Shown piece by piece: positions 433-32,866 of a stretch of DNA of 64,000 bases. The position numbers and the translations under genes were made by a program. Source of the DNA: Nonomuraea gerenzanensis (GTDB taxonomy: Bacteria > Actinomycetota > Actinomycetes > Streptosporangiales > Streptosporangiaceae); NCBI RefSeq assembly GCF_020215645.1, contig NZ_CP084058.1, forward strand, positions 6,634,001 through 6,698,000. Reading direction: 5' to 3'. Under the pieces are notes generated by a model, which was not told where the DNA came from, made no database searches, and worked only from the letters and a program-made list of their open reading frames with translations. Within the stretch, counting starts at the first letter, position 1, and the number at the start of each line of letters is the position of its first letter.

Positions 433-867
433 TCAGACCAGCAGGAAGGACGGGGTTCTGGCGAGCTCGACCACTTGGAAGCCGGAGCTGACGAAGTCCA
501 CGTTGTAGTGGAATCGTCCCGTCACCCCGCTCGGCACGGTGATCGAGTACCGCAGCACCCCGGGGCTGGAGCCGGAGCGCACGAAGTCGTTCCCGCTCGG
601 CGTCCAGGCCGGCGCCTTGAACTCCTCCTTGAAGGGATTCCCCGTCGGCACGAGGCTGGCCACCGGAAGGCCGGTGTTCTCGTTGATGGCGACGATGTTC
701 AGCGTGTAATCGCCGCCGCTCTGACCGAGTACGTTCCCCGCCTCCAGCTGCAGGACGAGATCGAAGGTCGGCGACCTGGGCGGACCCGCGTTGGGCGTGT
801 CGTCGGCGACGGTGCCGTTGGGCGCCGTGGTGTAGGCAGCCGCTATTCTCGCGTCGCTGGAATTCAT
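433..867 (-). CDS. 144-aa hypothetical, predicted beta-sandwich protein; last gene of the left island arm
   Basis: I do not recognise a family. The start at 867 (ATG) is chosen because GGGAGG lies 4 bases upstream; the longer frame running from 1902 is a shadow of the CHAT gene. The 144 residues open with a polar N-terminus (MNSSDARIAAAY) and continue as alternating hydrophobic strands (FDLVLQLEAGNVL, YTLNIVAINENTG, VLRYSITVP, FHYNVDFVS), suggesting a small immunoglobulin-like or C2-like fold. There is no signal peptide or membrane segment. It lies 98 bases downstream of the CHAT gene on the same strand, so it could be a CHAT substrate, regulator or target-binding adaptor; that is inference from position only. 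The 98-base gap is AT-richer than its surroundings and could hold its own promoter. Confidence 0.75.
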   Translation of the reverse strand: MNSSDARIAAAYTTAPNGTVADDTPNAGPPRSPTFDLVLQLEAGNVLGQSGGDYTLNIVAINENTGLPVASLVPTGNPFKEEFKAPAWTPSGNDFVRSGSSPGVLRYSITVPSGVTGRFHYNVDFVSSGFQVVELARTPSFLLV

Positions 868-965
868 GTGACCTCCCGAACAGGAATGGCGAAAGCATTT
901 CCCCCGCCATTTCCATGATGGCCGCGATTTCCAGGTCCCGGAATTCGTGAAATTACGTATCCGAT

Positions 966-3900
966 TCACACGCCATAATGCACGAACGAGCCCCAGAAAT
1001 AAGGTGATCCGATCTCTGGCCCGGGCGCGGGCCCTTCGGGTCGCAGGTCCCGCGCCCCGGAGGCCCCGCCTGTGCCGACGTCGCGCCGCAGGGTCTCGTA
1101 CGCGACATCCCGTGCGTCCTCGTCGAGCGTGCGCACCCAGCGCCGGACCGAGGTGAGAGCTCGCGTGACGCCGTCGCCCGCTGCCAGGCGCCGATACATC
1201 CCCGTCATGAGCAGGGCGGCGGCCTGATCGTCGGCCGGCCACAGCGATACCACCACGTGCCGCGCGCCGGCCGTCACCGCGGCACGGACCAGCCCCACGA
1301 TGTCCCCGCCCGCGGTGGCGGTGCCCTTGCCCGTATGGCACGCCGACAGCACCACGAGGTCGGCGCCGAGGTCGAGCCCCATCAGGTCCCCCACGGTGAG
1401 CCGGCCGTCGCCGGCGAGCGCGAGGTAGCTGCGGTGCGGCGCCAGTTCGTCGACGAGGCCGTGCGTGGCGAGGTGCAGGATGCGGCACCCCGGCGCCCGT
1501 GTCCTGACGGCCTGCTCGGTGGCGTCGTCGCCTGTCAGGACCTCCGCGTCGCCGAGCAGACCGGCGATCGCCGCCACTTCGGTGGCGCTGCCTCCCAGTG
1601 GGTGGAGGCCGCGCTGCGGGCTGTACGCCGGGTTGCCCACCAGCAGCGCCGGCCCGTTGAGGTCCGGTACGCGTGCGGCCCCCGGGCGGGCGAGCAGCGC
1701 CGCCGACGGCAGGTGGGAGACGTGGTTGCGCTCTCCCAGGACCTTGTCGCGCCAGGGCAGGGCGTGGAAGGGAAGCAGAGCCAGCGATCGGTGCGGCACG
1801 ACGATCACGTGACTGTCGTCCGGGATCATGGACTCGACCGGTCCGAGCAGCAGCCCCGTGAGCCGTTCGCCGAGTCGCCGGTCGTACCAGCCGGTGGCGC
1901 ACGATTGGTGGAACGCCCTGACGTCGGCGGCCAGGTCACGCTCGCGGATCCGTACGCGGTAGTGGCGCAGGCCGTCCGGGTCGGCGGCCCAGACCACCAG
2001 GTCCTGTCCGAACGCCTCGTAGTAGAGCAGGACACGATCGCCGGTCAGTCCGGCGCGTACCTCGTCCCAGTTCGCGCCGGGCCGTCTCTCCCGCCACCCG
2101 GTGAGCACCTGCGGCGCGAGCTCGGCGACCGCCGACTCCGCCGCTTCGAGCTCGTCCTCGACGGCCAGGATCCGGCGCTGGACCTCCTCCGGCGCGGGTG
2201 GATCCGCCGATGCCCCCGCCACCTGCCTGGCCAAGCCCTCGTAGGCCGCCGCCCAGGCGGAGCCTGCCCTCAGCCAGTGGCCGACGGCGTCCCGAGGCGC
2301 GCCGTCGGGCAGCTCGTCAAGCGCACGCAGGAGATCGACGACGAGCCCGCGGCAGCGGTCGGCGAGCTGGAAGGCGTCGCGGACGGCACGGTCGGCCTCC
2401 GCCGGGGAGCCGGCCTGGCCGGCCAGCCCGAGGTGGGCCATGACGGCGAAGTGGTACATGGCAGCGACGTTGACGTCGTCCGTCATCGAGGTACGCAGTA
2501 CCTCCCTGACGAGCCCGGCCGACCTGTTCTCGAAGTCCTCGATGGCACGGGCACCGTGCGTGACTGCCTCGTCGAAACGACCGAGCGCGGCGGCCAGCTC
2601 CGCGCGGCGCGCGGGGCCGAGCCAGGGCCGCCTGGCCGGTGGTGGCCAGCCCTGCTGGTCGAGGACCTGCAACGCGAGTTGCGCCGTCTCCGGGTCCTCG
2701 AGGATGAGGAAGAGCGACACGGCGAAGTCCAGGTGCAGCCTCCCGGCTTTCAGCAGCGTCATGGTGATCTCATGCGCCTCGTCCCGCCGGCCCAGCTCCG
2801 CCAGCAGGACGATGCGCAGGAGGACGTCGTCGTCGCGCAACGCGTCCAGCGCCTCCTGGAGGTGCATCCGGGATTCCCTGCGGCGTCCGGCCTGTTCGTC
2901 TCGCCGTCCCTCGTAGCGCAGGATCAGCGGGCGCGCCTGCCGAGCGGCCTCGCGTGTGGCGGCGAGGGCCTGCTCGACCCCGGCGGGGCGCTCCCGGATG
3001 CGATCCGCGGCGTCCACGACCGCGTTCAGGTACGCGGCCGCGACTCTCTTGAGATCCGGATCGGCGCTGCTCTCCGCCACGTTGTCCAGTTCGTTCACCA
3101 CGTCGGCGGCCCGCGTCCACGCCAGGGCGTCGACGGAGCCGGTGCCCAGCCCCGCCACGTGCTGCGCGGCCTCACCCGCGAGCAGCACAATCGAGGCGAA
3201 GCGGAAGTTGGCCTCGCTGACCAGGTCGATCAGGTCGCGGCCGGCCAGCGCCCGTTCCTGGGGGGCGTCGGCGAGGGTGGCGAGCCGCCTGGCCAGCCGC
3301 ATCGCCCGCATGGCGGGCAGGGACGGCCCGCTCTCCCGTAGCTGGCGGGCCCTGGCCAGCAGCAGCCGAACGATGCCCTGCGCGAACCCGTCGCCGCCCT
3401 CGGCCCGGCTCCACGCCGCCAGGGCGTCCATCTCGTCGAGGGGCACGTCCTCACCGGCGTCGAGCCGGTCGAGAAGCAGGTGCGTCTCTATAAGGCGGCG
3501 CATGGACCGCCGCCCTGAGCCGGCCGCCGCCTCGGCGGCCTGCCGCAGCAGGGGCACCGGGTCGCCGGCGGCGTCCTCGCGCATCAGGCAGGCCAGCCGC
3601 AGCGTGACCGCCGCGCGTCCGGCGGTGGCTCCCGCGCTCGCGTACAGCTCTCCGGCCCGCAGGTAGTGCCCGCGGGCCGACGTGAGGTCGGCGGCGGGCA
3701 GCGCCACCTCGACGGGGAGCCGGGTCAGCGACAGGGACAGGATGTCCGGATGTGCGGCCGGGGCCAGGGCCCAGTCCCCTTCGGTGAGCGCGAGGTGCGC
3801 GTTCATCAGCGGATCGTCGCCCGCCAGCCGATGGGCCTCGGCGAGAGGGGCCGCCACTCCCTGCATGCTGCCCGCACGCCTGGCCACGTCGGCCTGCGCC

Positions 3901-4415
3901 AGCAGCAGATAGCAGAGCGCGTCCCGCGAGGTCAGCCGTTCACCGAGCTCCTGGAACTCCTTGTACACGGCGGACATGCCCTCGTCGACGCCCGCGAGCG
4001 CGCTCTCGGCCACCGCCCTCGACCACGCAACGAGCGGGATCATGCGTGCCGCGACCTGGACGACGAGGTCGGCTCCCGGGTCCGCCGGCGCCGAAACGGA
4101 CCCGGCATCGAGCAGCGTGTCCTGAGGCGCCCCTCCGCCCGGATAGAGGTGGATGTCGGCCGTCCGGGCGGCCACCCGCAGCGCCGCCGCCACCTCCAGC
4201 ACCTCGACGGACCCCCGCAGGCCGTCGAGGGCGCGCAGGGCGCGCTTGGGCTCTCCGGCGGTGATCGCCGCGGCCGCGGCGACCAGCGGGCGCTCGGCTT
4301 CCGGGATCGTGGCCAGGGCGGTTGATCGGCCCTCCTCTCCCAGGAGGGGTGTGAGGTCGTCACCGTGACGTTCCGTCAGGAGCAGCGATACGAGCAGATC
4401 GGTCGAGTGCAACAT
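966..4415 (-). CDS. CHAT-domain protease with long helical-repeat N-terminus (1149 aa)
   Basis: CHAT domains are caspase-like cysteine peptidases of the separase superfamily. The C-terminal ~300 residues show the two catalytic motifs: His985 in ILHLATHG and Cys1026 in VVLSACHTG, followed by the conserved ARHVVVSLW strand and the typical FWGSFVHYG ending. The first ~800 residues are Ala/Leu/Arg-rich helical repeats of TPR type, expected to bind partners or hold the protease inactive. No signal peptide is visible, so it should be cytoplasmic. The ATG at 4415 is preceded by GGGAGG 5 bases upstream. It follows the 80-aa LuxR protein by 15 bases, so co-transcription is likely. It is one of three CHAT proteins in the island, and its repeat domain is unlike the other two on reading. 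Confidence 0.93.
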   Translation of the reverse strand: MLHSTDLLVSLLLTERHGDDLTPLLGEEGRSTALATIPEAERPLVAAAAAITAGEPKRALRALDGLRGSVEVLEVAAALRVAARTADIHLYPGGGAPQDTLLDAGSVSAPADPGADLVVQVAARMIPLVAWSRAVAESALAGVDEGMSAVYKEFQELGERLTSRDALCYLLLAQADVARRAGSMQGVAAPLAEAHRLAGDDPLMNAHLALTEGDWALAPAAHPDILSLSLTRLPVEVALPAADLTSARGHYLRAGELYASAGATAGRAAVTLRLACLMREDAAGDPVPLLRQAAEAAAGSGRRSMRRLIETHLLLDRLDAGEDVPLDEMDALAAWSRAEGGDGFAQGIVRLLLARARQLRESGPSLPAMRAMRLARRLATLADAPQERALAGRDLIDLVSEANFRFASIVLLAGEAAQHVAGLGTGSVDALAWTRAADVVNELDNVAESSADPDLKRVAAAYLNAVVDAADRIRERPAGVEQALAATREAARQARPLILRYEGRRDEQAGRRRESRMHLQEALDALRDDDVLLRIVLLAELGRRDEAHEITMTLLKAGRLHLDFAVSLFLILEDPETAQLALQVLDQQGWPPPARRPWLGPARRAELAAALGRFDEAVTHGARAIEDFENRSAGLVREVLRTSMTDDVNVAAMYHFAVMAHLGLAGQAGSPAEADRAVRDAFQLADRCRGLVVDLLRALDELPDGAPRDAVGHWLRAGSAWAAAYEGLARQVAGASADPPAPEEVQRRILAVEDELEAAESAVAELAPQVLTGWRERRPGANWDEVRAGLTGDRVLLYYEAFGQDLVVWAADPDGLRHYRVRIRERDLAADVRAFHQSCATGWYDRRLGERLTGLLLGPVESMIPDDSHVIVVPHRSLALLPFHALPWRDKVLGERNHVSHLPSAALLARPGAARVPDLNGPALLVGNPAYSPQRGLHPLGGSATEVAAIAGLLGDAEVLTGDDATEQAVRTRAPGCRILHLATHGLVDELAPHRSYLALAGDGRLTVGDLMGLDLGADLVVLSACHTGKGTATAGGDIVGLVRAAVTAGARHVVVSLWPADDQAAALLMTGMYRRLAAGDGVTRALTSVRRWVRTLDEDARDVAYETLRRDVGTGGASGARDLRPEGPAPGPEIGSPYFWGSFVHYGV

Positions 4416-4430
4416 GTGGCCTCCCGCGGC

Positions 4431-4673
4431 TCAGTCATGGCGCGCGGTGATCGGGAATGAGAGCAAGCCGAGCGCGTACCCCCTCAGCACGGCCGTGAGC
4501 CGGTCGGAGGTGCTGAGCTTGCGGTAGAGGTTCTCCTGGTGCTTGCCGACGGTGCGCGGCGAGACGCCGAGCCGCCGGGCCATCTCCTTGGCCGTCAGCC
4601 CTTCGGCGAGTAGCCGGAGCACACTGTGCTCGCGTGGAGTCAGCCGCGGCCGGGTCTGTGGTGTGGTCGTCAC
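4431..4673 (-). CDS. 80-aa LuxR-type HTH-only DNA-binding protein
   Basis: The protein is almost only a GerE/LuxR helix-turn-helix: LTPREHSVLRLLAEGLTAKE, then MARRLGVSPRTVGKHQENLYRKL. The start is taken as GTG at 4673, giving VTTTPQTRPRLTPRE; the frame is open further upstream but that sequence is a shadow of other genes. No strong ribosome site precedes it, so the start is uncertain. LuxR proteins normally carry an N-terminal receiver or ligand-binding domain, and none is present. It sits between the 74-aa gene and the CHAT gene on the same strand, so it may autoregulate the left arm or compete with the LAL regulators for operators. Confidence 0.8.
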   Translation of the reverse strand: MTTTPQTRPRLTPREHSVLRLLAEGLTAKEMARRLGVSPRTVGKHQENLYRKLSTSDRLTAVLRGYALGLLSFPITARHD

Positions 4674-4780
4674 CTGGTCACCGTCTCGTCCCGGGGCGTG
4701 CGCGTCATGGGGAGAAAGGAGCGAACGTGCCGTACGGCAACCCTTAGGCCCGGCCCGTCCGCCCCTTAGCCGCCCGGGTC

Positions 4781-5005
4781 TCAGCCGGAGTGGAACCCGA
4801 TGATCGCCCCGTTGAGGTCCATGGTGACGAAGTCGAGCCGCTCGCCGTTCAGGATGATGGTGAGCGGGTTCCCGTGGTAGACGACCCCGATGGACAGCGG
4901 CTTCTTCAGGTCCATCGCCTTGAGTATGTCCTCGGTGAGCGCGTTGGGATCGGCGCCTTCCTGCAGTTCGAACGACTTCCCGTACAGGTGGATCTTGCTT
5001 GCCAT
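4781..5005 (-). CDS. 74-aa hypothetical protein between LAL regulator and CHAT
   Basis: I do not recognise this family. The ATG at 5005 has a good site (AGAGGAAAG) about 6 bases upstream. The 74-aa product looks like a compact alpha/beta fold: a strand-like start (SKIHLYGKSFEL), an acidic helix (NALTEDILKAM), then strands (LSIGVVYHG, LTIILNGERLDFVTM) and the end GAIIGFHSG. It has no signal peptide, membrane segment or cysteine. It is spaced 41 bases from the LAL regulator gene and 107 bases from the LuxR-HTH gene on the same strand. A small folded protein beside a CHAT protease is a reasonable candidate for a protease substrate, inhibitor or signal, but no function can be read from the sequence. 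Confidence 0.8.
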   Translation of the reverse strand: MASKIHLYGKSFELQEGADPNALTEDILKAMDLKKPLSIGVVYHGNPLTIILNGERLDFVTMDLNGAIIGFHSG

Positions 5006-5046
5006 GGTGCTTTCCTCTCTGGTGATCCGATGAGTTGAAAGGAGGA

Positions 5047-8025
5047 TCAGGGATCGACGAGGCCGTGCCGGCGCGCCGTGACCGCGGCCACACCGCGGGT
5101 GGCGGCGCCGAGCTTGGTCATGATGTGCGACACGTGCACGCTCGCCGTCTTCTCGGTGATGAACAGGGCGCGTGCGATCTGCCGATTGCTCTGTCCCTGC
5201 GCCAGGTGCCTGAGCACCTCGCGCTCGCGCCGGGTCAGCCCGAACGGGTCGGGCACCTGTTGCGGCGGCGGCCGGTGGCCTGCGTCCACGCTCACCCGGG
5301 CCGCCACGGCCATGGCCATGACCTCGGCGCGCAGCGGCTCCGCGCCGATCCGTCCAGCGATGCGGGCGGCCTCGCCCAGGGGCTCCGCGGCGGCCAGGCG
5401 GTCGCCGAGCTCGATCGCCGCCTCGCCCTGCCGCCATCGCGCGTACGCGGCCGGGTACGGACGCCGTAGCGACAGCCAGGACTCCGCGACCGCCTCCCAT
5501 GCATCCACGTCGTGACGGCCGGCCAGCCGGGCACTCTCCGCCCGGCACAGCGCCAAGGTCGCCGACATCTCGGGCAGCGGGGTCTCCTCCGCGCCGAGCG
5601 CCGCGGCCTCGGCCTGGGACAGGAGCCGGGCGCCCACCTCCACGACCTGGTCGATCTCCGCCTGGTCAGGCCTGGGTAGGGAGCGCAACCGCCGCGCCTC
5701 GTCAGCTGTCACCCGCAGTCCCATGGCGCACAGTCGCAGCGCGAAGCCACCGTGATCGCCGTGTGCCGTAGCGGCGAGCCCGTTGTCCACGCAACCTAGT
5801 GCCCGCGCGTGCTGCCCACGCCAAAGCGCCAGCTCGGCCCACAGCACGTGCAGCGGTCCCGCGAACTGCGGCTCGTCGAGCCGAGCGGCGACCGAGCCCG
5901 CCTCGTTCAGCCGCTCCTCGGCCGCGGCGAAGGCACCCCGTCCAATCTCGATCTCGGAGCGGACGATCTGCAGGTAGAAGTCAAAGCCGGGCGGCAGGTC
6001 CCGCGCGCTCGCCGCGCCGGCCACCTCCTCAGCCTCGTTCCACCTGCCCAGCAGCACCAGCACCGAGGCCGCGTTGGCCACCAGCGCGCCGCCTCCGGTC
6101 AGCTCGAGCCCCAGGTCGCGGCCCCGGTCCACGCCCCGCCGTGCCACGTCGAGCGCCTCTTCGAGCTCGCCGGTGACCTCCAGGACGTAGGCCAGGTTCG
6201 CGTACGCCCGGAAGACGTCCTCCAGCGCGCCCAGCTCATCGGCGATGTCCGTGGCGGTGCGCAGCGCGGCGGTGCCGGCCTCCGGCGCTCCCGTCAGGGT
6301 GAGGGCGACACCCATGGTGTTCAGTGCCCGCCCCTCCTCCGCCCGGGCTCCCACGAGGCGGGCGATCCGCAGGGCCTCCTCGCTCTGGCCGATGGCGGCG
6401 CGATAGTGTCCTGCCTGCATGAGCGCGGTCGCGTACCCGGCCCGGGTCCAGGCCACCTCGGCCGAGGGCGGCTCGCCGGACAGGACCCTGGTGGCCTCCT
6501 CGTACGCCCGTAGCGACTCCTCGCCCCGGCCCAGCTCCCACAGGTAGCGACCCTTGCGTTCGAGCAGGGTTCCGGCCCGCGCGGCCTCGCCGTCGTGACC
6601 GAGCTTGGCCAGGATCTCGTCGAGCAGTCCCACCGCCTCGGAGATCCGGCCCGACCAGCGGTAGGCGTCGGCGGCCCGGACGAGCAGGTCCTCGCGGGCC
6701 AGCCCGGCTCGGTCCTCGGCGTCCGGCACGCGGGTCCACAGCCGTAGCGCACGGTCGTACTGCCGGGCCGCCTCGGCGTAGGCGAAGACGGACACCGCCG
6801 CCGCGGCGCCGCGTACGGACTCCGCCAGCGCCTGGGGGACGTTGTGCGCCTGCTCCCAGTGGTGTGCCAGCTCGGCCGCCAGGTTGAGGCTGTCGGTCTG
6901 TGACAGGGCCGGGTCCTCGGTAAGCGCTTCGGCGATCGCGCCGTGCAACCAGCTGCGGTCGCCGGGCAGCAGCTCGGCGTAGACGGCCTCTCGCGCCAAC
7001 TCGTGACGGTAGCCGTAGGTCTGCCGGGACGGCTCGACGACGAGGATCTGCCGTCCCACGCATTCCTGCAACGTCCGCCTCAGCTCGCGCTCTCGCAGGT
7101 CGCAGACCCTTGCCAGCAACGGGTGCGTGACCTGCCGGCCCGCTGTCGCCACTACCCGCAGCACCTCCTGCGCGGGCTCGCTGAGCGCCTCGATCCTGGC
7201 CAGCACGACGTCGCGGACCGCGATCGGGACGCCCTGCTCGCCGAGGTCCCGCGCGGCGATCAGCTCCTCGGTGAAGAACGGGTTGCCGTCCGAACGGTCG
7301 AACACCCGATCGGCGAGGTCGCCTGGAGGGTCGCCCCCCAGAATGGCCGCCACCAGTTCCCGGTGCCGATCGCGGTCGAGCCGCGCCAGCTCGCAGCGGC
7401 GGCAGCGACCGCTGAGCTCGATGTCGGCCAGCGTGCCTCTGAGCATGTGGCCGGGCAGCAGGTCGTCGGTCCGGTAGGTGAGAACCACCAGCACTCGCTC
7501 TTCCTGGAGCGTGCGGATGAGGAACACCAGGAGGTCCAGCGTGGAGCGGTCGGCCCACTGCAGGTTCTCCACGGCGAACAACACGGGCCCCGTCTCGCCG
7601 AGCTCGTCGAGCAGGTGCAGGACCGCCTCGAACAGGCGGCGCTGGGTCCCTTCGCGGGACGGCTCCTGCTGATCCTCCTCCATCAGGACGGGGAGAAGCA
7701 GCCCGAGCTCTCGCCAGTTGCGCCCGGCCAGCCTGCGCACGGCGGGCGCCCCGAGCTCACGCACCAGTCTGCGCAGCGCCTCGGTCAGCGGCGCGTAGGC
7801 CATGTCGCCGGCGCTGAGGTTCAGGCAACCGCCGGCCAGGACCCGGGCTCCGTGACCGGAGACCCAGGCGGTGAAGTCGCGCAGCAGCCTGGTCTTGCCC
7901 GACCCGGCCTCGCCGCCGACCACGAAGGCGACCGGAGCACCGCCGCTCGCCGCGCCGAAGGCGTCCCGCAGCATGGCGAGTTGGTCCTCGCGGCCTACCA
8001 TCCGGTCGGCTGACAAGAGTGTCAC
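5047..8025 (-). CDS. LAL-type ATPase transcriptional regulator, AAA/STAND plus LuxR HTH (992 aa)
   Basis: This is a large ATP-binding LuxR regulator of the MalT/LAL type. The N-terminus starts with MVGREDQLAMLRDAF and a Walker A, GGEAGSGKT, at about residues 38-45. A Walker B-like PVLFAVENLQWADRSTLDLL follows near residue 155. The middle ~600 residues are TPR-like repeats. The last ~70 residues are a GerE HTH (LTRREREVLRHLAQGQSNRQ, then IARALFITEKTASVHVSHIM). Such proteins are signal-gated switches that oligomerise on ATP and activate promoters. The GTG at 8025 is the first start in frame. It lies 62 bases downstream of the caspase gene on the same strand. The same LAL-caspase neighbourhood recurs in the right arm. 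Confidence 0.93.
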   Translation of the reverse strand: MTLLSADRMVGREDQLAMLRDAFGAASGGAPVAFVVGGEAGSGKTRLLRDFTAWVSGHGARVLAGGCLNLSAGDMAYAPLTEALRRLVRELGAPAVRRLAGRNWRELGLLLPVLMEEDQQEPSREGTQRRLFEAVLHLLDELGETGPVLFAVENLQWADRSTLDLLVFLIRTLQEERVLVVLTYRTDDLLPGHMLRGTLADIELSGRCRRCELARLDRDRHRELVAAILGGDPPGDLADRVFDRSDGNPFFTEELIAARDLGEQGVPIAVRDVVLARIEALSEPAQEVLRVVATAGRQVTHPLLARVCDLRERELRRTLQECVGRQILVVEPSRQTYGYRHELAREAVYAELLPGDRSWLHGAIAEALTEDPALSQTDSLNLAAELAHHWEQAHNVPQALAESVRGAAAAVSVFAYAEAARQYDRALRLWTRVPDAEDRAGLAREDLLVRAADAYRWSGRISEAVGLLDEILAKLGHDGEAARAGTLLERKGRYLWELGRGEESLRAYEEATRVLSGEPPSAEVAWTRAGYATALMQAGHYRAAIGQSEEALRIARLVGARAEEGRALNTMGVALTLTGAPEAGTAALRTATDIADELGALEDVFRAYANLAYVLEVTGELEEALDVARRGVDRGRDLGLELTGGGALVANAASVLVLLGRWNEAEEVAGAASARDLPPGFDFYLQIVRSEIEIGRGAFAAAEERLNEAGSVAARLDEPQFAGPLHVLWAELALWRGQHARALGCVDNGLAATAHGDHGGFALRLCAMGLRVTADEARRLRSLPRPDQAEIDQVVEVGARLLSQAEAAALGAEETPLPEMSATLALCRAESARLAGRHDVDAWEAVAESWLSLRRPYPAAYARWRQGEAAIELGDRLAAAEPLGEAARIAGRIGAEPLRAEVMAMAVAARVSVDAGHRPPPQQVPDPFGLTRREREVLRHLAQGQSNRQIARALFITEKTASVHVSHIMTKLGAATRGVAAVTARRHGLVDP

Positions 8026-8087
8026 GGCTCGCTCCGTTCACGTGGGTACGAAGGCTCGGCGGGGCCGGGCGGCGTGCCGTGCTCTCG

Positions 8088-10559: not shown

Positions 10560-10585
10560 CTCCTCCGTCGTGGAATCCCGAAGAT

Positions 10586-10825
10586 TCAGAACTTCATGTT
10601 CTCGATGACCTGCATCGCCGCACGGTGCTGCGCCGCGGACGCGTCGCTGAGGCTCTTGGCGAGCTCCCCGCTGTCGACAGGCTCGGGAGCCGATTCCTGA
10701 CCGGTATCCTCCGTGGACTCCGGAAGGGCATCCATGGGGACTTCCTCGACAGTTATGTAACCCACGAGCGTCATCTCGTCGGTTTCGACGGACACCTCGT
10801 AGAGCTCAGGGAATTCCTCGGACAT
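10586..10825 (-). CDS. 79-aa acidic hypothetical protein
   Basis: Small acidic protein of unknown family. The ATG at 10825 follows AGGAG by about 7 bases. The N-terminal half is Glu/Asp rich with short strands (YEVSVETDEMTLVGYITVEE); the C-terminal half is a low-complexity acidic linker followed by a predicted amphipathic helix (LAKSLSDASAAQHRAAMQVI). It has no membrane segment and no cysteine. It sits 12 bases after the Hsp70-CD225 gene and 26 bases before the caspase gene, all on one strand. A flexible acidic polypeptide next to a caspase-like protease could be a substrate, propeptide-like inhibitor or chaperone client; this is inference from context. Confidence 0.8.
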   Translation of the reverse strand: MSEEFPELYEVSVETDEMTLVGYITVEEVPMDALPESTEDTGQESAPEPVDSGELAKSLSDASAAQHRAAMQVIENMKF

Positions 10826-10837
10826 GGTCGTCTCCTT

Positions 10838-12229
<1,392 letters not shown>

Positions 12230-12256
12230 GACTTGCTCCAATCAGCGGTTATCGCT

Positions 12257-14026: not shown

Positions 14027-14457
14027 GACCGGTTCTCCTCGTTCGTACGTGTGTGGTCGAAGACGGTGACTTCGGCCTCGCGGAGCACTTCAGGCCCGCT
14101 CTCGTAGCCGGGCCGCACCACCGCGGCGACCAGGCCGTGACGGCCGGGATCGTCGGTGGGCTCCCGGTCGACCGCCCGATGGCGGAGCGTGGAGAACGGC
14201 TCGCCGCAGGCCGCGATCACCTGGACGCCGGCGTCGGCCAGCGCCCGGTGCACCTGGGCGCGCAGGGCCTCGCTGGTGAGCTGGTCGGCCAGCTCGATGC
14301 AGGCCAGGACGAGCCGGTCGTCCCTGGAGCGGGACACGGTGTGCGGCACGCAGTCCGCGGCCCAGCGATGCTGCCTGAGCAGCCCGCCCAGGCAGAGCCC
14401 GGCCGCGAATGCCGTCACGGCGAGCAGGAGCCACAGCCCGGTGATCAGGAACGACAC
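14023..14457 (-). CDS. Membrane-anchored GrpE-like nucleotide exchange factor (144 aa)
   Basis: A single transmembrane helix occupies about residues 3-25 (FLITGLWLLLAVTAFAAGLC), followed by a soluble domain. The soluble part ends in a stretch very like the C-terminal beta domain of GrpE: ADAGVQVIAACGEPFSTLRH, then REPTDDPGRHGLVAAVVRPGYESGPEVLREAEVTV in pieces matching GrpE's GxPFDPxxHEAV and RPGY blocks. GrpE releases ADP from Hsp70; the Hsp70-type ATPase at 10838-12229 is the obvious partner. The long dimerising helix of housekeeping GrpE is largely missing. The GTG at 14457 follows GGGAGG by 7 bases, overlaps the preceding GTPase gene by 13 bases, and its stop overlaps the next GTPase start. 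Confidence 0.82.
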   Translation of the reverse strand: MSFLITGLWLLLAVTAFAAGLCLGGLLRQHRWAADCVPHTVSRSRDDRLVLACIELADQLTSEALRAQVHRALADAGVQVIAACGEPFSTLRHRAVDREPTDDPGRHGLVAAVVRPGYESGPEVLREAEVTVFDHTRTNEENRS

Positions 14458-15959: not shown

Positions 15960-16088
15960 GGGACCAGCGTCTGATGACACCGCCCGAAATCGATACCGGG
16001 AAATCCCTATTCCTGCGAAATACCGGGTAGTACGCATTGATACGTACAAAAGCTAGATTTAGATCATGAATGCGCTCATGCTTGAGCC
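15960..16088. promoter_or_regulatory. Divergent control region of the island
   Basis: This 129-base gap separates the two arms and is clearly AT-richer than its surroundings, as expected for back-to-back promoters. It contains an inverted repeat GTACG (16030-16034) / CGTAC (16043-16047) with an 8-base spacer, a possible operator. For the plus strand a weak TTGATA (16037-16042) and TAGATC (16060-16065) lie 17 bases apart, a poor match to the -10 consensus. The promoter assignment rests on position and composition. Confidence 0.5.
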
Positions 16089-18833: not shown

Positions 18834-18866
18834 AGAACCGTGGCTCACCCAAGACTGGAGGAAGGC

Positions 18867-21407: not shown

Positions 21408-21453
21408 TCGTTACGTAGCGGCCGGATTTCTGCCTGGCAATACGCAAGAAAAC

Positions 21454-21474: not shown

Positions 21475-21507
21475 CGTCGCATTATGGCGACAAAAGGGGG
21501 GAAACAC

Positions 21508-26184: not shown

Positions 26185-28724
26185 CGTCCGCCGGGAACTA
26201 CGACGTGCTGAGAGCCCTCGCCGATGACGCGCCGGCCGGGGCGGACACCGCCGAAGCCGTGCAGGCGACGGCAGAAGCCCTGGCCTGGTGCCGGGAACGC
26301 CTGCCTGCCGGTGATCCCGGGCTCGTGCCGGCCCTGGTGCGTCATGCCCGGGCCGTGTCGATGGCGGGGCAGATCGGATCCGCGACCGAGTTCGCGTACG
26401 AGCTGCTCTTCGACGAGGCGCTCGCCATCCTCCGCGCGGGTCGGGGAGGGCAGGACGAGCTGGTGGCCGCGGTCCTGTGGACGTACGCCCAATGCCTGCG
26501 CCGCCTCCGTCCCGCCAAGTGCGTGACGACCCTCGAGGAGTGGCTGGGGCTCCTGCGGAAGCTGCGCGGGCCGTCCCATCCCGACGTGGCGGCGGCCGAG
26601 TGCCGGCTCGCGGGAGAGCTGCGGCAGCAGCGAAGACACCAGGAGGCCTTGACTCACTACCAGGAGTCGCTGCGCATCTGGTCGCTGCATCCGCCTGACA
26701 CATGGGGGCTGATGGCCGCGGAGGGGGTGGGATACCTGGCGGAGCTGACCGGTGATCTCGGCACGGCCGCCGACGCCTACGCCCAGGCCGTGCTGACCGC
26801 CCAGGCGCTGGGGGACGATTCGGTCGGCACCTACCTGGTGGCCTGCGCCCGAGTGGCGGCCGGACGCGGCGAAGACGCCCTGCCGCAGTTCGAGAAGGCG
26901 CTGGCGGAGCAGCGAGCGGCGCTGGGAGACGCCCATCCCGACGTGGCGGCCACCTGGATGTCCATCAGCCTGGCCACGAGCGGCGAGCGCGCTCTGCACG
27001 CCACGCGCGAAGCCTTGCGCGCCGCCGGTGCATGGCTCGAGTCGGGCGGGGCCACGACGGTGGGCGACCAGCGCCGCCGCGACTTGATCACGGTCTTCGC
27101 CCGGTACGCCGAACATCACCTGTCATGGTGGACGGCGAGCCGGTCAACCCCGGCGGAGGCCCCGATGGCAGAGGCCCTGGAGGTGGCGGCCTGGCGGCGC
27201 CGGCTACCCCAGCTGCTGTGGTCCCCCTGGCGGTTACCTGGCCGGCGTCATCCCGGCGAGGCCGAGCTCAACGCCGTGATGGCGCGGATCGCTCACCGCC
27301 TGCAGGATCGGTACCAGGCCGCGGGCAGGCGGCCGGGCGCGGCGGCAGCCGAGCCGGCCTGGATGGAGCACGTCACCGAACTGCCGGTCCTGGAGAGCAG
27401 GCAGGCCGAGCTGGAGACGCGCCTGTGGCAGGAGTGCCGGCCCGGCGTGCTGGCCCGGCCGCTGGCGTCCACCGCCATGGCCGCCGCTCGCCGGGCGCTG
27501 GCCGCCGACGAGCGCCTGGTGGACATCATGGGCGTCGAAGGACGGTACGCGGCGTTCGTGGTGGGACCGCTCGACGAGCAGAGCGCCGTCGTCGACCTGG
27601 GACCAGCGGCACGGATCGAGCAGGAGGCGCTGCGCGCGAGAGTCACGCTCGAAGGACCGGACCGGGCGGCGGCCTTCCGCGATCTGACGCCCGTGCGGGC
27701 CGCCTCCGCCGGTGATCTCCGGCCCCTGGCTCAGCTGCTGGTGGCGCCTCTGCTGCCCGCTCTGGCGGGCTGCCGGCGCGTCCGGATGGTTCTGGACGGG
27801 CCGTTGCTGCACGTGCCTTTCGGCGTCCTGCCGGTGGACGCCGCTGGAAGCCCGCTGCTGACCATGTTCGCCCTCGACTACCTGGTCACAGCCGACGATC
27901 TGGCGGCGGACACCGGTCCCGGTGCGGAGCCGGGGCCGGAGCTGGTCATGGCCGCCCCCGACTTCGACCTCGGCAGTGTGGAGCCCGGGCAGACGGGTTT
28001 CCTCTTCGGGTCGCTCGACGGCACCGCCGGAGAGGCCGAGGGCATCGCCGGGCTGCTCGGGCCGCGAGCCGTCGTCCTGCGCGGCGACCAGGCGTTGAAG
28101 GGGCGGCTGCGCGAGACGCGATCTCCCCGGCTGCTGCACCTGGCGACGCACGGCTACGTGCTGTCCGGCATGAGCGAGGCGGCGGTGCGGGAGACGGATC
28201 GCCGCCTGCGTGGCACCACGAGTGAGCTGGCAGGGCGCTTCGCGAACCTGCGCCGCCACCCCAGCCTGCGCAGCGGCCTCGCGCTCGCCGGCGCGAACAG
28301 GTGGCTGGCGCACGGCGTTCCCGGCCCCGGGGCGGAGACGGGAATCTTCACCGTGGCGGATGTCAGCGCTCTGGACCTGTCAGGCACCGCGCTGGTGGTG
28401 CTGTCGGCGTGCGACACCGGTGTCGGGGATCTCGACGCGGTGGACGGTCACGTCAGTCTCAGGGCAGCATTCCTGCGATCCGGGGCCGGAGCGGTGGTGG
28501 CGAGCCTGTGGAAGGTGCCGGACCTGCCCACCCGCGACCTCATGATCCGTTTCTACGAGTTGCTGGGCCGGGGGCATCCACCGGCTGACGCCTTGCGCAC
28601 CGCCCAGCTGGAACGTCACGCGGCCGTAGAGCCGGTACTGAACTGGGGCGCGTTCGTGTGCTACCTCGGCGCCCGACGACAAGAGGGCCAGGGGATCCGA
28701 GCTCAGAACTGGGGGAGATCATGA
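26181..28724 (+). CDS. TPR-CHAT protease (847 aa)
   Basis: Third CHAT protein. The catalytic pair is His657 in LLHLATHGYVL and Cys744 in VVLSACDTG, followed by AGAVVASLWKVPD and the ending NWGAFVCYLG. The N-terminal ~450 residues are helical repeats with TPR-like units (EALTHYQESLRIW; DAYAQAVLTAQALG). The true start is GTG 26181, since GGGAGG lies 6 bases upstream and the codon overlaps the previous stop (GTGA); the longer frame from 25995 lies inside the preceding gene. Tight coupling to the 1558-aa CHAT protein suggests the two are made in a fixed ratio and may form a complex, or one may process the other as in CHAT-gasdermin-like cascades. No gasdermin is recognisable nearby. Confidence 0.92.
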   Translation: MTSAGNYDVLRALADDAPAGADTAEAVQATAEALAWCRERLPAGDPGLVPALVRHARAVSMAGQIGSATEFAYELLFDEALAILRAGRGGQDELVAAVLWTYAQCLRRLRPAKCVTTLEEWLGLLRKLRGPSHPDVAAAECRLAGELRQQRRHQEALTHYQESLRIWSLHPPDTWGLMAAEGVGYLAELTGDLGTAADAYAQAVLTAQALGDDSVGTYLVACARVAAGRGEDALPQFEKALAEQRAALGDAHPDVAATWMSISLATSGERALHATREALRAAGAWLESGGATTVGDQRRRDLITVFARYAEHHLSWWTASRSTPAEAPMAEALEVAAWRRRLPQLLWSPWRLPGRRHPGEAELNAVMARIAHRLQDRYQAAGRRPGAAAAEPAWMEHVTELPVLESRQAELETRLWQECRPGVLARPLASTAMAAARRALAADERLVDIMGVEGRYAAFVVGPLDEQSAVVDLGPAARIEQEALRARVTLEGPDRAAAFRDLTPVRAASAGDLRPLAQLLVAPLLPALAGCRRVRMVLDGPLLHVPFGVLPVDAAGSPLLTMFALDYLVTADDLAADTGPGAEPGPELVMAAPDFDLGSVEPGQTGFLFGSLDGTAGEAEGIAGLLGPRAVVLRGDQALKGRLRETRSPRLLHLATHGYVLSGMSEAAVRETDRRLRGTTSELAGRFANLRRHPSLRSGLALAGANRWLAHGVPGPGAETGIFTVADVSALDLSGTALVVLSACDTGVGDLDAVDGHVSLRAAFLRSGAGAVVASLWKVPDLPTRDLMIRFYELLGRGHPPADALRTAQLERHAAVEPVLNWGAFVCYLGARRQEGQGIRAQNWGRS

Positions 28725-30922
28725 CAAGGGCTGCGAAGATCGCCGCCATTCAGGCGCAACGCGCGACGAGTGCGGCAACGGCGGAGGGCATGGAGCGGCG
28801 GCTGGCTGCCCTGGCCGAAGGGCTCTCCCGCCTGGAGGCCATCAGAGCCGACCTGGTCACGCGGGTCGAGGACGACGCGAGGGACCAGTTGAGCGCACTC
28901 GCGGAGCCGCTGAAGGATCTCATGCTGGGTGTGCGCAGGGAACGGGCCGAACTCGAGCGCGTCCTGGCCAGGCTCCGCCGGACCACCTTGAACATCGGTG
29001 TCGTGGGCCGGGCCGGCCAGGGCAAGAGCAGGCTTCTGCAGAGCCTCACCGGTCTGACGACCAGGGAGATCCCCGACGGTAGCGGCGGGTTCTGCACGGG
29101 CGTGCCAAGTGTCGTCAGGCACGCGCCTGGGACCACCACGTACGCGGACGTGTTCTTCCACACCGAGCAGTCCTTCCTGCACGAGGTTGTGACGCCCTAC
29201 TTCGAGCGCCTCCGCCTCGGCCGCTCCCCGACGTCGCTGGAGGACTTCGCCGGCCCGCTGCCACCGCTGGAACGGGAGGGACAGGAGGACATCGCGCGCA
29301 AGGAGAGCGCCTACGCCCATCTGTCGTCCTTCCGTACCACGCTGACCGAATACCGGCGATGGCTGGGCACGACATCCCCGCATCGCATCACCGCGGACCA
29401 GATCCGCGAGTTCGTCGCCCAGGACGATCCAGACGGGAACCGTCGTTACCACGCCTTCCGCGCGGTGCGCCGCGTCCACATCACCACCTCCTTCCCCCAC
29501 GACGACCTCGGTGGCATCGGCACCATCGACCTGCCGGGACTCGGCGACACCAACCTCGGCGACTCCCGCCTGCTGTTGAGCGCGCTCAGCGACGACGTGG
29601 ACGTGGTGCTGTTCGTACGGCGGCCCGCCCCCGAGCGGGACGCCATCCAGGACACCGACATCGATCTGTACGACCTGGCACAGAGCGCGCTGCCGGACAT
29701 TCCCATGGAGAAACGCTCGTTCCTGCTGCTCAACCATCGGCGCAGCCTCGATCAGGACAACCTGAACAACGCCAGGTTGTTCCGCGACCAGATCCCCGGC
29801 TCGGCGATCAAAGTGGCCGGCACCGACATCGTGGACTGCTCCGACGCCGAGGCCGTCGCTACGGCGTTCGAGCCCGTGGTCGACTACCTGCTCACGCACG
29901 TCGGCGAGCTCGACCGCATGCTGCTGCGGGCGCGCAGGCAGACCATGGCGGAGCTGGGCCGCCAGATCACCCTCCTGATCAGCCAGGCGCGCCGGCTCGA
30001 CGCGCTCGCCCAGCCGGCGAGCATGTGGTTCCCCACCTTCCAGTCCCTGTTCAAGCAGGCGCACACCAGCCTGTCGGCCGAGCTTGACCAGTTGGTCGAC
30101 CGGCTGAGGGAAGAGCGCGGGCTGCGTGACACGGCTTTCAGCCAGAGCGTACGAGCCGTCCTCGCCCTGGCCCGCAGTGACGACGGCATTCCCGCGCCGG
30201 AGGACATCAGGACCCGGTTCGCCGTGGAGGGCACCCGGCAAGCCGCCTACAGTCACCTGCTCGACGAGACGCGTGCCCATCTGTCCAGGCACTTCCTCGG
30301 CCTGCACGACGGGTTGCGCGAATGCGTCGGGCAGATGCACGAGGACGTGGCGGCCCTGCTCGCGCGTGCGGGCGGCCTGGCCCCGCTGAGCGGCAGGCAG
30401 GGCAGGCTCTTCCTGCTGGACGTGGCGGAGCGGATCCCGCCGACCCTGCGGCAGGGCCGGCCGAGCGAGATCCAGTACGCGCTCACCATGCTGACGGAAT
30501 TCGAGCTGAACTACCGCGGCTTCGTTCAGCACCGCATCCGGCCGTGCCTGGACGGCCTGCACGGCGACTCACCGGCCATGGCACTGCCGTCGGACGGCAC
30601 CCTGGTGGATGAGAAGACCATGCGGGAGATGCTGCGGATCTCCTACGAGGAGGCACTGGACCGCTGTGACACGGCCCTCGACGGGCTGACCACGGAGCCG
30701 AACGGCGCGGTGTTCGCCATCGTCGAGGAGTTCCGCGACCGCGTGCTGCGCGCGGAGGGCAGCACGGACGAATGGCGTGCCTTCTACCAGGACATCAGGG
30801 CAGAGCTGTGGAGCGACACCTTCTCCGCCCTGGCAGAGCAGGCAGGCCATCTGAGAGTGTGGGACGAGGCCGTACAGGCTCTGGCCTCGCTCCTCGACCA
30901 GGGTCACGAGGAGGAGAAGTGA
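28721..30922 (+). CDS. Dynamin-like GTPase with N-terminal coiled coil (733 aa)
   Basis: G1 reads GRAGQGKS at about residues 96-103, and G3 is IDLPGLGDTN; the G4 position reads LLLNHRRS rather than the canonical N/TKxD, so guanine specificity is uncertain. Residues ~20-90 form a heptad-rich coiled coil (RRLAALAEGLSRLEAIRADL) ahead of the G domain. The C-terminal ~350 residues are helical, with no obvious transmembrane segment. The ATG at 28721 has GGGGGAG just upstream and overlaps the CHAT stop by 4 bases. It is less similar to the two left-arm dynamins than they appear to each other. Membrane association through helices, as in dynamins, is inferred from the family. Confidence 0.85.
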   Translation: MTRAAKIAAIQAQRATSAATAEGMERRLAALAEGLSRLEAIRADLVTRVEDDARDQLSALAEPLKDLMLGVRRERAELERVLARLRRTTLNIGVVGRAGQGKSRLLQSLTGLTTREIPDGSGGFCTGVPSVVRHAPGTTTYADVFFHTEQSFLHEVVTPYFERLRLGRSPTSLEDFAGPLPPLEREGQEDIARKESAYAHLSSFRTTLTEYRRWLGTTSPHRITADQIREFVAQDDPDGNRRYHAFRAVRRVHITTSFPHDDLGGIGTIDLPGLGDTNLGDSRLLLSALSDDVDVVLFVRRPAPERDAIQDTDIDLYDLAQSALPDIPMEKRSFLLLNHRRSLDQDNLNNARLFRDQIPGSAIKVAGTDIVDCSDAEAVATAFEPVVDYLLTHVGELDRMLLRARRQTMAELGRQITLLISQARRLDALAQPASMWFPTFQSLFKQAHTSLSAELDQLVDRLREERGLRDTAFSQSVRAVLALARSDDGIPAPEDIRTRFAVEGTRQAAYSHLLDETRAHLSRHFLGLHDGLRECVGQMHEDVAALLARAGGLAPLSGRQGRLFLLDVAERIPPTLRQGRPSEIQYALTMLTEFELNYRGFVQHRIRPCLDGLHGDSPAMALPSDGTLVDEKTMREMLRISYEEALDRCDTALDGLTTEPNGAVFAIVEEFRDRVLRAEGSTDEWRAFYQDIRAELWSDTFSALAEQAGHLRVWDEAVQALASLLDQGHEEEK

Positions 30923-31962
30923 GCGAGAAGCCAGCCAGGCGGCAGCGCCTCGGCAACGCCCCTTGGCGGAAGATCACCGGCCGGTACGGCGAGGACGCGA
31001 TCATCGACGTCACCATGCTGGGCTCGGTCGGGGTGGGCAAGACCACGTTGCTGGCCTCGATGTACGAACGGTTCGGGCAGGTGATCGGCGCCACCGACCT
31101 TCAGGTGACACCCACTGACCGTAAGACCTCGGTGAGCCTGCAGGGCTACATCGAGGACCTCCGGCGCATCGCGGACGGCCTGCGGGTGCAGGGCGGCATT
31201 CAAGGCACCGGCGAGCTGCGGGACTACGCCTTCGACGTCGGTCGCAAGGGCCGTGCCCCGCTCTTCAAACTGCGATTTACTGACTATCCCGGCAAATATC
31301 TTCTTAATCCGGATAATTCAGACGACGAAAAGCTTCAGCGCGCGCTCGAACGGGCTCATGTCATCCTGGTGGCGATCGACTCCGCCGCGCTCATCGAACG
31401 CAACGGCCGTTATCACAACCTCATCAACATTCCTCAGATCGTCACCGACGAGATCAAGCGCATGCTGCAGGCGAGAATGGATCGGCTGATCATTCTGGCC
31501 CCACTCAAATGTGAGACCTACGTGGAGAAACCACCCGGCGCACAGGAGCTCAGGGCCAAAATAGTCGAAGAGTATCGGACGCTGCTCGACTACATCGGAT
31601 CCGGAGAGCTCCGCGAGCGTGTGGGGTGCGTGATCACCCCCGTGCAGACGGTGGGCGCGGTGGTGTTCCACCGGCTGGAGGAGGACCCGCAACACCGCAA
31701 CCCCGTCTTCGAATTCCGGGTGAAGGCCGTCGGCGCGCGGTACGCGCCGCTCCACACCGACCAACTCCTGCGGTACGCGCTGCGGTTCGTGGTGAACAAG
31801 TATCGCGACAGCGACCACCGCGGCGTCATGCGGGCGTGGTGGGAACGTGCCATGGGGACGGACGCGGCCATGGTCGAGGCCGCACGGGAGTTCGCCGCCG
31901 GCTGCAAGAGCGACGACGGCTTCGGCGTCCTGCAGAGCCATCCCTACCTGGACGGGCAATGA
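30919..31962 (+). CDS. TRAFAC-type P-loop GTPase (347 aa)
   Basis: The P-loop GSVGVGKTT is at about residues 35-43, followed by LLASMYERF, a pattern of the TRAFAC GTPases found in bacterial multi-gene conflict loci. A Walker B/G3-like strand reads LRFTDYPGKYLL. No standard N/TKxD was found with certainty (LIILAPLKCETY may be the equivalent strand). The last ~60 residues are helical. The GTG at 30919 overlaps the previous stop (GTGA), with GAGGAG immediately upstream, so the true start is not the longer frame from 30772. It is likely the switch component acting with the adjacent dynamin-like GTPase and with the membrane protein that starts one base after its stop. Confidence 0.82.
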   Translation: MSEKPARRQRLGNAPWRKITGRYGEDAIIDVTMLGSVGVGKTTLLASMYERFGQVIGATDLQVTPTDRKTSVSLQGYIEDLRRIADGLRVQGGIQGTGELRDYAFDVGRKGRAPLFKLRFTDYPGKYLLNPDNSDDEKLQRALERAHVILVAIDSAALIERNGRYHNLINIPQIVTDEIKRMLQARMDRLIILAPLKCETYVEKPPGAQELRAKIVEEYRTLLDYIGSGELRERVGCVITPVQTVGAVVFHRLEEDPQHRNPVFEFRVKAVGARYAPLHTDQLLRYALRFVVNKYRDSDHRGVMRAWWERAMGTDAAMVEAAREFAAGCKSDDGFGVLQSHPYLDGQ

Positions 31963-31963
31963 C

Positions 31964-32866
31964 ATGGGTGCCCGCTGGTTGGTGCAGACGCGCGGGCCGG
32001 GCGCCACGGAGGACTACCGGTGGCTGCCCGTCGGGCACGAAAACCTGAAGGCGCTGCGGCTCCTCGAGAAAGGGTGGCGGAAGGGCTCGTCGTTCCTCAC
32101 CCTGCTCGACGACGAGAGACCTGGGCTCCTGCTGTACCGGTTCCGGAGCGAAGGACTGCTCCTGCTGATCACAGGCCTCATCCCGGCCGGTCGCCCGGTC
32201 GACTCACGCAAACGCGCCATCAGGGTCAACGTGCTCGGCTGTACCCACGACAGCTCAGACCGGCTTCCCGGCGGGACCGATGACGGCAGCGGCGCCATCC
32301 TCGCCGTCGCCTGCGCGGCCCTGCGCGGCGACCTCTCCGACCGGCTGCCAGTGATCTACGGCTCGGACGGCGGGACCGGCTTCACGCTGGAGCCGGAGGA
32401 TTGGAACGACATGCTGGAGGACGTCAAGGGCGGGTACACGTCACCCGATACGCCGCTCACGCGCAGACCCCGCATCGACGATGACACGGAGACGGCGCGC
32501 GAGCGGGTGGCCGGCGAACTCGCGGCACTCCACAGCCAAGGGACGCTGGACCGGCTGTCCGGCACGCTGCTGGTCCTGCGCACACGCGTCCTCAGCCGAC
32601 GTCAGTCCGAGGCACTGGGAGCATGGCGGGTGCTGGTCGACATCCTGCCCGACGAGCGGGGGCCTGCGGAGCAGAGCCTCTTCAGCCAGCTCAGGGATCT
32701 CAGGAACCGGCTCGGCATCTCTCTGTTCCTCGGTCTGGTCGCGTTGGCGATGGTCGTCGCCGCGATCGTGGTGAACCTGCCGAGGTGGGACCCGCCGCCG
32801 CCGAACCCGACCACCAGCCCGACGGCGAGCACGCCCCGGAGCCCGCCCTCGACCACCGGCAGGTAG
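31964..32866 (+). CDS. Tail-anchored membrane protein of unknown family (300 aa)
   Basis: I do not recognise the soluble domain. Residues 1-~245 are globular and mixed alpha/beta (WLVQTRGPGATEDYRWLPVG; LLLITGLIPAGRP; VLGCTHDSSD). A single transmembrane helix follows at about 252-272 (ISLFLGLVALAMVVAAIVVN), then a Pro/Thr/Ser tail of ~28 residues. With no signal peptide, the bulk should face the cytoplasm and the tail should be outside. The ATG at 31964 comes one base after the GTPase stop, so it depends on translational coupling. As the last gene of the right arm it may recruit the GTPases to the membrane, or act as their regulator. Its stop meets the convergent flavoprotein gene at 32868 with one base between. 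Confidence 0.8.
   Translation: MGARWLVQTRGPGATEDYRWLPVGHENLKALRLLEKGWRKGSSFLTLLDDERPGLLLYRFRSEGLLLLITGLIPAGRPVDSRKRAIRVNVLGCTHDSSDRLPGGTDDGSGAILAVACAALRGDLSDRLPVIYGSDGGTGFTLEPEDWNDMLEDVKGGYTSPDTPLTRRPRIDDDTETARERVAGELAALHSQGTLDRLSGTLLVLRTRVLSRRQSEALGAWRVLVDILPDERGPAEQSLFSQLRDLRNRLGISLFLGLVALAMVVAAIVVNLPRWDPPPPNPTTSPTASTPRSPPSTTGR

Follow-up and report, generated by a model that had tools for sequence, protein, structure and literature searches.

Eighteen genes in two divergent arms

In the 64,000-bp stretch of the Nonomuraea gerenzanensis chromosome that we analysed (contig NZ_CP084058.1; hereafter the window), 18 intact genes at positions 433-32866 are split over two divergent arms. The genes of this island, several of which belong to modules (A, B or C) defined below, are as follows.

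S144, 433..867, minus strand: 144 aa, without a Pfam or NCBIfam match; 99% identity with Nonomuraea sp. PA05, dN/dS 0.02
CHAT1, 966..4415, minus strand: 1149 aa, C-terminal CHAT protease domain (PF12770, E 2.8e-60)
luxRs, 4431..4673, minus strand: 80 aa, LuxR-type HTH (GerE 60.8 bits), module C
S74, 4781..5005, minus strand: 74 aa, probably belonging, if remotely, to the ~80-aa family of caspase partners, module C
LAL1, 5047..8025, minus strand: AAA_16-TPR-LuxR regulator (Pfam), module C
CASP1, 8088..10559, minus strand: caspase (PF00656) with a family-specific C-terminal part of ~580 aa, module C
S79, 10586..10825, minus strand: 79 aa, acidic; ribosome site AAAGGAG
Hsp70-CD225, 10838..12229, minus strand: nucleotide-binding domain plus CD225 membrane domain (PF00012, PF04505), module A
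DYN2, 12257..14026, minus strand: IniA-like dynamin (PF00350; IniA 6j72), module A
GrpE-like exchange factor, 14023..14457, minus strand: PF01025, E 1.5e-9, module A
DYN1, 14445..16037, minus strand: second dynamin of the pair (PF00350, E 2.1e-12; start at 16037 or 15980), module A
Divergent gap, 16038..16088: inverted repeats at 16030-16047 and 16074-16087
LAL2, 16089..18833, plus strand: AAA_16-LuxR regulator (Pfam) of a subfamily other than that of LAL1
CASP2, 18840..21407, plus strand: caspase, the closer of the two to the f39 module-C caspases
TPR-CHAT2, 21508..26184, plus strand: TPR repeats plus CHAT (PF12770, E 8.8e-67; TPR_12)
CHAT3, 26181..28724, plus strand: TPR plus CHAT (PF12770, E 2e-52); 4-bp overlap with each neighbouring gene
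DYN3, 28721..30922, plus strand: dynamin-like large GTPase (Dynamin_N 24.9 bits; 392 relatives), module B
DO-GTPase2, 30919..31962, plus strand: small GTPase (PF19993, 44 bits against a cut-off of 27), module B
TM300, 31964..32866, plus strand: tail-anchored protein with a weak match to a longin-like fold, module B

Pfam searches identified two LAL regulators (AAA_16 plus GerE), two caspases (Peptidase_C14) and three CHAT proteins among the island proteins, and also matched Dynamin_N in DYN1 and DYN2, Hsp70 (NBD) together with CD225, GrpE, and DO-GTPase2. These matches and the gene calls bear out the gene number, the two divergent arms and the protein families given in the initial annotation of this DNA, except that only two of its three dynamin-like GTPases, DYN1 and DYN2, are confirmed by Dynamin_N; the score of DYN3 falls below the Pfam cut-off of 27, so that "dynamin-like" is the fitting word for this protein. 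By eye, the caspases carry GHG and DSC and the CHAT proteins carry HLATHG and LSAC, which we take to be the catalytic motifs that such proteases should show. A P-loop is visible in 4/4 island GTPases, and the GrpE-like protein has a hydrophobic stretch at its N-terminus.

The island is syntenic with its counterpart in Nonomuraea sp. PA05 (92%), and dN/dS values of 0.02-0.41 across the 17 genes compared (S79 was left out) indicate purifying selection; together these findings argue that the island is more than a chance assembly. It is also rare, as CASP2 was found in only 2 of the 54 genomes of the genus. CASP2 was not found among 35 genomes of the family of G095, an empty answer that shows little by itself, and the gene of L240 that was expected to encode a CHAT protein has no CHAT domain according to Pfam.

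The 51-bp divergent gap differs from that of PA05 at 2 positions. The arms had been proposed to meet at one control region; their divergence stands, but a scan of positions 1-20000 for sigma-70-type promoters, the only promoter type it covers, found none. We also rejected the idea of an operator common to both regulators, given that each inverted repeat occurs as one perfect copy in the window; copies with one mismatch are no commoner there than chance.

S79 lies inside the 278-nt stretch between the Hsp70 and CASP1 genes (10560-10837). The best conserved 250-nt segment of the island relative to PA05 (10608-10857, 98.8%) covers most of S79, and the S79 protein is 97.5% identical in the two; it matched no Pfam family and had no relative among the other loci compared. 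We considered this stretch as a regulatory RNA or promoter but prefer to see in it the 18th gene of the island; its fold z-score is -1.34, and no Rfam family reached its gathering score in 1-34000.

Module A resembles the mycobacterial iniBAC system

DYN1, GrpE, DYN2 and Hsp70-CD225 make up what we call module A, which by its sequence appears to be a relative of the mycobacterial iniBAC envelope-stress system. Residues 6-559 of DYN2 align over the full length with residues 5-565 of IniA (6j72; E 3.4e-29), the DYN1, GrpE and DYN2 genes overlap or abut, and DYN1 adjoins DYN2 in 34 of 40 module-A loci. Elsewhere, an IniA-like dynamin pair is often accompanied by an Hsp70 NBD, GrpE or a STAND/LuxR regulator. 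LAL2, a candidate IniR orthologue with AAA and LuxR domains, matches the regulators that adjoin dynamin pairs only weakly (best score 43 bits).

Passages of PMC5760070 describe how the STAND/LuxR-type regulator IniR turns on iniBAC under cell-wall stress in mycobacteria, and a passage of PMC6715688 describes the cutting of membranes by IniA. The island shares with iniR-iniBAC the full-length IniA-like dynamin, the adjacent second dynamin and an adjoining STAND/LuxR-type regulator, and in M. smegmatis a dnaK-like gene adjoins iniR, as one passage of PMC5760070 has it. It differs in that its operon adds the GrpE-like protein and Hsp70-CD225, with caspases and CHATs attached. The dynamin pair is also reminiscent of Eleos (LeoA/LeoBC), with 70 bits for DYN2 against LeoBC and 42 bits for DYN1 against LeoA in a profile library that gives no curated cut-off; DYN2 is, however, better matched by IniA (105 bits, in a different database from that of LeoBC).

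The chaperone pair beside dynamins had been thought an unfamiliar arrangement. This is not supported, since the arrangement recurs in actinobacteria, and passages of two earlier papers already report cyanobacterial dynamin-DnaK and dynamin-GTPase neighbours (PMC5827413) and HSP70 plus GrpE adjoining DO-GTPases (PMC7159879).

Module B is a recurring triplet

The tight triplet DYN3, DO-GTPase2 and TM300 is a module (module B) that occurs in actinobacteria, cyanobacteria and others, and the window has the three genes in this order. DO-GTPase is present in 61, and a relative of TM300 in 57, of the 71 loci with 2.5 kb of downstream sequence; PF19993 is matched by 19/19 aligned DO-GTPase2 relatives, and the position of TM300 3' of DO-GTPase is conserved. 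The AlphaFold model of TM300 (pLDDT 86) matches a longin-like fold weakly. The TM300 protein of N. monospora is 86% identical to that of the island. Because CHAT3 and DYN3, and DYN3 and DO-GTPase2, overlap by 4 bp and TM300 starts after 1 bp, modules B and C appear by their anatomy to lie on a common transcript. We found no description of the dynamin/DO-GTPase/TM300 triplet in the literature searched. Pfam contains GAP1 models; no GAP1-named family was matched by the window proteins or, for 36 TM300 relatives, stood among the 25 families listed of 68.

Like the DO-GTPase systems in passages of Kaur et al. 2020 (PMC7159879), where 14% of GAP1-N2 neighbourhoods include HSP70 and GrpE, the island has a DO-GTPase2. 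Unlike the systems in those passages, its DO-GTPase2 is partnered by a dynamin-like GTPase and TM300, and the word "dynamin" is absent from the main text of that paper. Passages of PMC5827413 describe cyanobacterial HSR1 and chaperone clades in which a dynamin has a downstream GTPase or a downstream DnaK, and the island resembles them in this respect. In nearly all dynamins of those passages, an INALL-type motif comes after the P-loop, at the place where DYN3 has SRLLQSLTGL, so that membership of DYN3 in the HSR1 clade is only possible, and the same passages describe no caspase or CHAT with these clades.

Module C joins a LAL regulator to a caspase

Module C combines a LAL regulator with a ~80-aa partner and a caspase, all such caspases belonging to one full-length family; a CHAT protein is often present as well. 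The CASP1 and LAL1 genes are adjacent, and a LAL1-type regulator adjoins 13/13 full-length f39 module-C caspases; LAL1 scores 490-754 bits against 12 of these regulators, the 13th being truncated by the contig end. Close relatives of luxRs (65-77 bits) adjoin 6 of these 13 caspases, and the ~80-aa partner is present at 12/13 f39 loci. S74 is the next-best match after the 12 members of the partner family (E 0.048; PA05 copy, 0.0084; hhalign probability 87). The caspase residues His82 and Cys140 (CASP2 numbering) are invariant across 41 aligned sequences. In fold searches with the caspases, matches to the protease domain crowded out the C-terminal part.

The two caspases are related over their full length (35%). 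In the caspase tree, a Sphaerisporangium protein is placed with CASP1 (100/99), and CASP2 joins a clade made up of f39 and Micromonospora proteins (98/93). From this tree, together with the 26% identity of LAL1 and LAL2 over 182 aa, we rejected the idea that the arms are duplicates of each other, and the different branches of the two caspases suggest that parts of module C may have been acquired twice. The genes most closely related to the f39 module C are spread over both arms: the minus arm has LAL1, luxRs and, as a remote relative, S74, and the plus arm has CASP2.

The LAL-caspase-small protein-CHAT module has no description in the literature searched. In passages of PMC7159879 on EACC1-caspase systems, the caspase is likewise the constant protease, in multicellular bacteria; CASP1, the one caspase scanned, reaches 27.6 bits with the model of the EACC1-associated caspase (NF047832), whose cut-off is 140.

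The modules mostly occur apart elsewhere

Using profiles built for this analysis and limited flanks, we counted the modules' co-occurrence. Of 80 module-B loci, 10 have a CHAT, 2 a caspase (PA05 is in both counts) and 3 a LAL, which does not support an enrichment of these genes near the triplet. CHAT or caspase was found at 0/40 module-A loci, and dynamin, Hsp70, GrpE, DO-GTPase or TM300 at 0/21 module-C loci. The initial annotation had staked its proposal on homologous loci not having the modules scattered; they do lie mostly apart elsewhere, which goes half-way to refuting it, yet the whole block is kept in two Nonomuraea genomes. The arrangement is thus partly known (module A) and partly a chimera (A with C, and C with B).

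Homology breaks off sharply at the right end of the island in 8/8 relatives compared, indicating that the site is variable. We rejected a mobile-element boundary at this break, since the window contains no tRNA and the two ends tested share no more than a direct match of 8 bases and an inverted one of 10. To the left, two genes recognised by eye, one for an NRPS and one for an ABC transporter, end at window position 373; this flank is common to PA05 (89-91% over the part compared) and so does not mark a left end for the island.

A candidate link between membrane damage and proteolysis

On the best reading we can offer, the island would respond to envelope damage under the control of sensors and have a proteolytic branch for death or defence, and we put the chance that it is a composite of three modules working together at about even. 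The joining of modules mostly found apart suggests a possible coupling of membrane damage to defence or cell death driven by proteases. Module A would contribute two dynamins for reshaping the membrane, together with an Hsp70-type ATPase that serves as a membrane-bound switch and the exchange factor of this ATPase; module B would be a second membrane GTPase device, its small GTPase and possibly longin-like TM300 controlling the dynamin-like GTPase; and module C (LALs, caspases, S74, the small LuxR protein and CHATs) would be the sensor and protease module. On binding a signal, from damage or from a metabolite, the LAL/STAND regulators would oligomerise and turn on the arms, and the dynamin modules would act at the membrane. 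Should damage persist, the caspase and TPR-CHAT proteases would cut cellular targets and the hyphal compartment would die or shut down, limiting spread (of phage, for example). The earlier description of the system as membrane-acting and signal-gated remains plausible, given that DYN2 is IniA-like and that the pair adjoins a STAND/LuxR-type regulator.

The main rival, which we lean against while taking it seriously, is that independent stress or defence modules gathered at a variable chromosomal site without acting jointly. The mostly separate occurrence of the modules in other genomes, the placement of CASP1 and CASP2 apart in the tree and the break at the right end favour such a chance neighbourhood, whereas the 4-bp CHAT3/DYN3 overlap and the division of the nearest module-C relatives between the arms argue against it. 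So does the intact block in PA05, although two closely related species also fit simple inheritance.

The NRPS gene and transporter next to the island, on a flank that PA05 shares, raise the alternative that the island protects or controls the biosynthetic cluster, the LALs governing biosynthesis and the dynamins guarding the producer's membrane. We consider this improbable, as 0/18 island genes are biosynthetic and modules B and C apparently occur elsewhere without the cluster. Streptomyces uses dynamins at its sporulation septa, and the host is a mycelial actinomycete, so a developmental system for hyphal septation or sporulation might be envisaged. We judge this very improbable: the restriction of CASP2 to two genomes means that it is not required for a genus-wide life cycle, and module B is also found in cyanobacteria.

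As an extension of the composite reading, module B could correspond in bacteria to the switches of eukaryotic membrane traffic and, in this Nonomuraea lineage, be wired with an Ini-type dynamin/Hsp70 device to LAL-sensed caspases and TPR-CHATs in one integrated membrane-demolition death system. In this scheme, which we think rather unlikely, the Ras-like DO-GTPase, under a tail-anchored longin-type regulator, would drive the dynamin-like membrane GTPase. Work on bacteria usually treats caspases and dynamins separately, and here they share operons; the literature listings searched contained no combined caspase/CHAT-dynamin system. The separate occurrence of the modules offers a clean way of asking what each contributes, and both the module-B triplet and the LAL-caspase-small protein-CHAT module recur and are small enough for cloning and testing. 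GTPase-longin pairing is known in eukaryotes and Asgard archaea, and would gain a dynamin-linked bacterial relative if TM300 is a longin-type regulator.

Gene content and conservation of the island

Reading frames with actinobacterial codon bias, together with family searches, place 18 genes at window positions 433–32866 of the 12.07-Mb genome, and the gene list of the initial annotation, its count of 18 included, proved correct. The genes form two divergent arms.

Minus arm, from the centre outward: DYN1, GrpE, DYN2, Hsp70-CD225, S79, CASP1, LAL1, S74, small LuxR, CHAT1, S144
Plus arm: LAL2, CASP2, TPR-CHAT2, CHAT3, DYN3, DO-GTPase2, TM300

The eighteenth gene, encoding the small protein S79, was recognised because the 278 nt that separate the Hsp70 gene from CASP1 are unusually conserved, with 4 differences (1.4%) from Nonomuraea sp. 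PA05 against 7.7% over the whole island. In PA05, window 1–34679 is present as a single block (92% identity); the PA05 copies of the 17 island genes tested are free of stop codons, and dN/dS is 0.02–0.41. Among the 59 genomes searched for DYN3 (own genome counted; 36 of the same genus), two gave a match. CASP2 was detected in two of 54 genomes of the genus, and of 341 genomes of the family three matched CASP1, one of them weakly and over part of the protein. Two perfect inverted repeats (window 16030–16047 and 16074–16087) flank or fill the divergent gap and are possible regulator sites.

On the right, homology to the window starts abruptly at 32873–32880, just beyond the last gene, in all eight relatives compared; on the left, an NRPS flank is common to the island host and PA05 too. 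The NRPS gene and an ABC transporter, recognised by eye in translation, end directly before the island on the plus strand (upstream locus L042, G000:C1:6622001-6634000, and window 1–373). The right flank holds the following genes, and PA05 carries ~6 kb of additional DNA beyond the first.

32868–34652: FAD-binding oxidoreductase
34802–36622: Amidase_2
36280–37314: M23 peptidase
37443–40637: BTAD/NB-ARC/TPR regulator

The chaperone–dynamin set is an Ini-type module

The chaperone–dynamin arrangement (module A) had been described as unknown, a claim that was too strong because this set is an Ini-type module found widely. DYN2 aligns with IniA over nearly its entire length and has a match in 44 of 246 class genomes. 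Among the 51 DYN2 matches listed we fetched 40 loci; the remainder were the copy in the window itself, two further pieces located within fetched loci, and eight others. In 34 of the 40, DYN1 and DYN2 share a strand and lie ≤1.5 kb apart; 19 have an Hsp70 gene (≥100 bits) ≤8.5 kb away, and nine a GrpE-like gene ≤6 kb away. Some of the 19 may be ordinary dnaK operons, because common DnaK-type matches score ~105–112 bits; nine Hsp70 genes at six module-A loci score 243–316 bits.

In all eight Hsp70 proteins scanned near dynamin pairs, the match covers only Hsp70 positions 1 to ~373 (of 599), and the C-terminal parts vary (WD40 in two, a PQQ propeller in one, a Vgb/YncE propeller in one, and none recognisable in the other four). 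Nucleotide-binding halves fused to such diverse C-termini (WD40, PQQ, other beta-propellers) stand beside the dynamin pairs of L153, L154, L156 and L164. The Hsp70 half is like a constant switch with interchangeable sensors, and the CD225 fusion in the window is a further variant of this type.

A scan of ten large regulators adjoining module-A dynamins, picked among LAL- and LuxR-like hits, showed GerE in nine, six of which also have an AAA/STAND match. In mycobacteria, iniBAC is activated by IniR, and the locus reacts to trehalose and to drugs that act on the cell wall (PMC5760070).

Three modules joined in one island

Outside this island module A, module B (DYN3, DO-GTPase2, TM300) and module C (LAL regulator, caspase and small partner, often with CHAT) are mostly separate. 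No caspase or CHAT was found at the 40 module-A loci, and module-B loci have CHAT in 10 of 80 and a caspase in two (PA05 included in both), counts that are lower bounds obtained with flanks ≤10 kb and profiles made in this analysis; one module-B locus, L100, has an Hsp70 piece (69 bits) at its end. In the island, the minus arm carries A then C and the plus arm C then B. On the plus arm three neighbouring gene pairs (TPR-CHAT2/CHAT3, CHAT3/DYN3, DYN3/DO-GTPase) have 4-bp overlaps, and TM300 starts after a 1-bp gap. The nearest relatives of the reference module-C loci are split, with LAL1 and the small LuxR, as well as the remotely related S74, on the minus arm and CASP2 on the plus arm; this fits a rearranged, integrated locus and is also compatible with two acquisitions. 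The genes and their combination are real, as initially claimed; that the three modules form one integrated system we regard as an evenly balanced proposition, and a chance neighbourhood of modules as possible, though we lean against it.

The best-supported picture is that STAND/LuxR regulators would sense and two kinds of dynamin device would work at the membrane, steps that draw on the Ini precedent. A protease branch may then kill or shut down the compartment, a role suggested by those of caspases and CHAT proteins elsewhere. Worth pursuing are modules B and C as recurring units, together with the way they are fused in this island.

Several module-C loci, frequently with two copies each, encode a protein of ~320–400 aa whose C-terminal end is similar from locus to locus; four of these proteins were scanned and matched no Pfam family, and none was seen in the window.

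L234: 10871–11956
L240: 15083–16132
L239: 16461–17480
L243: 3760–4710

Nonomuraea jiangxiensis (L044, 13237–16944) is a third Nonomuraea with the module-B triplet (64% identity); no caspase was found at this locus, and a CHAT-matching frame overlaps TM300 and continues past it. The module-B loci L087, L100 and L103 have two DO-GTPases and two or three tandem TM300 relatives.
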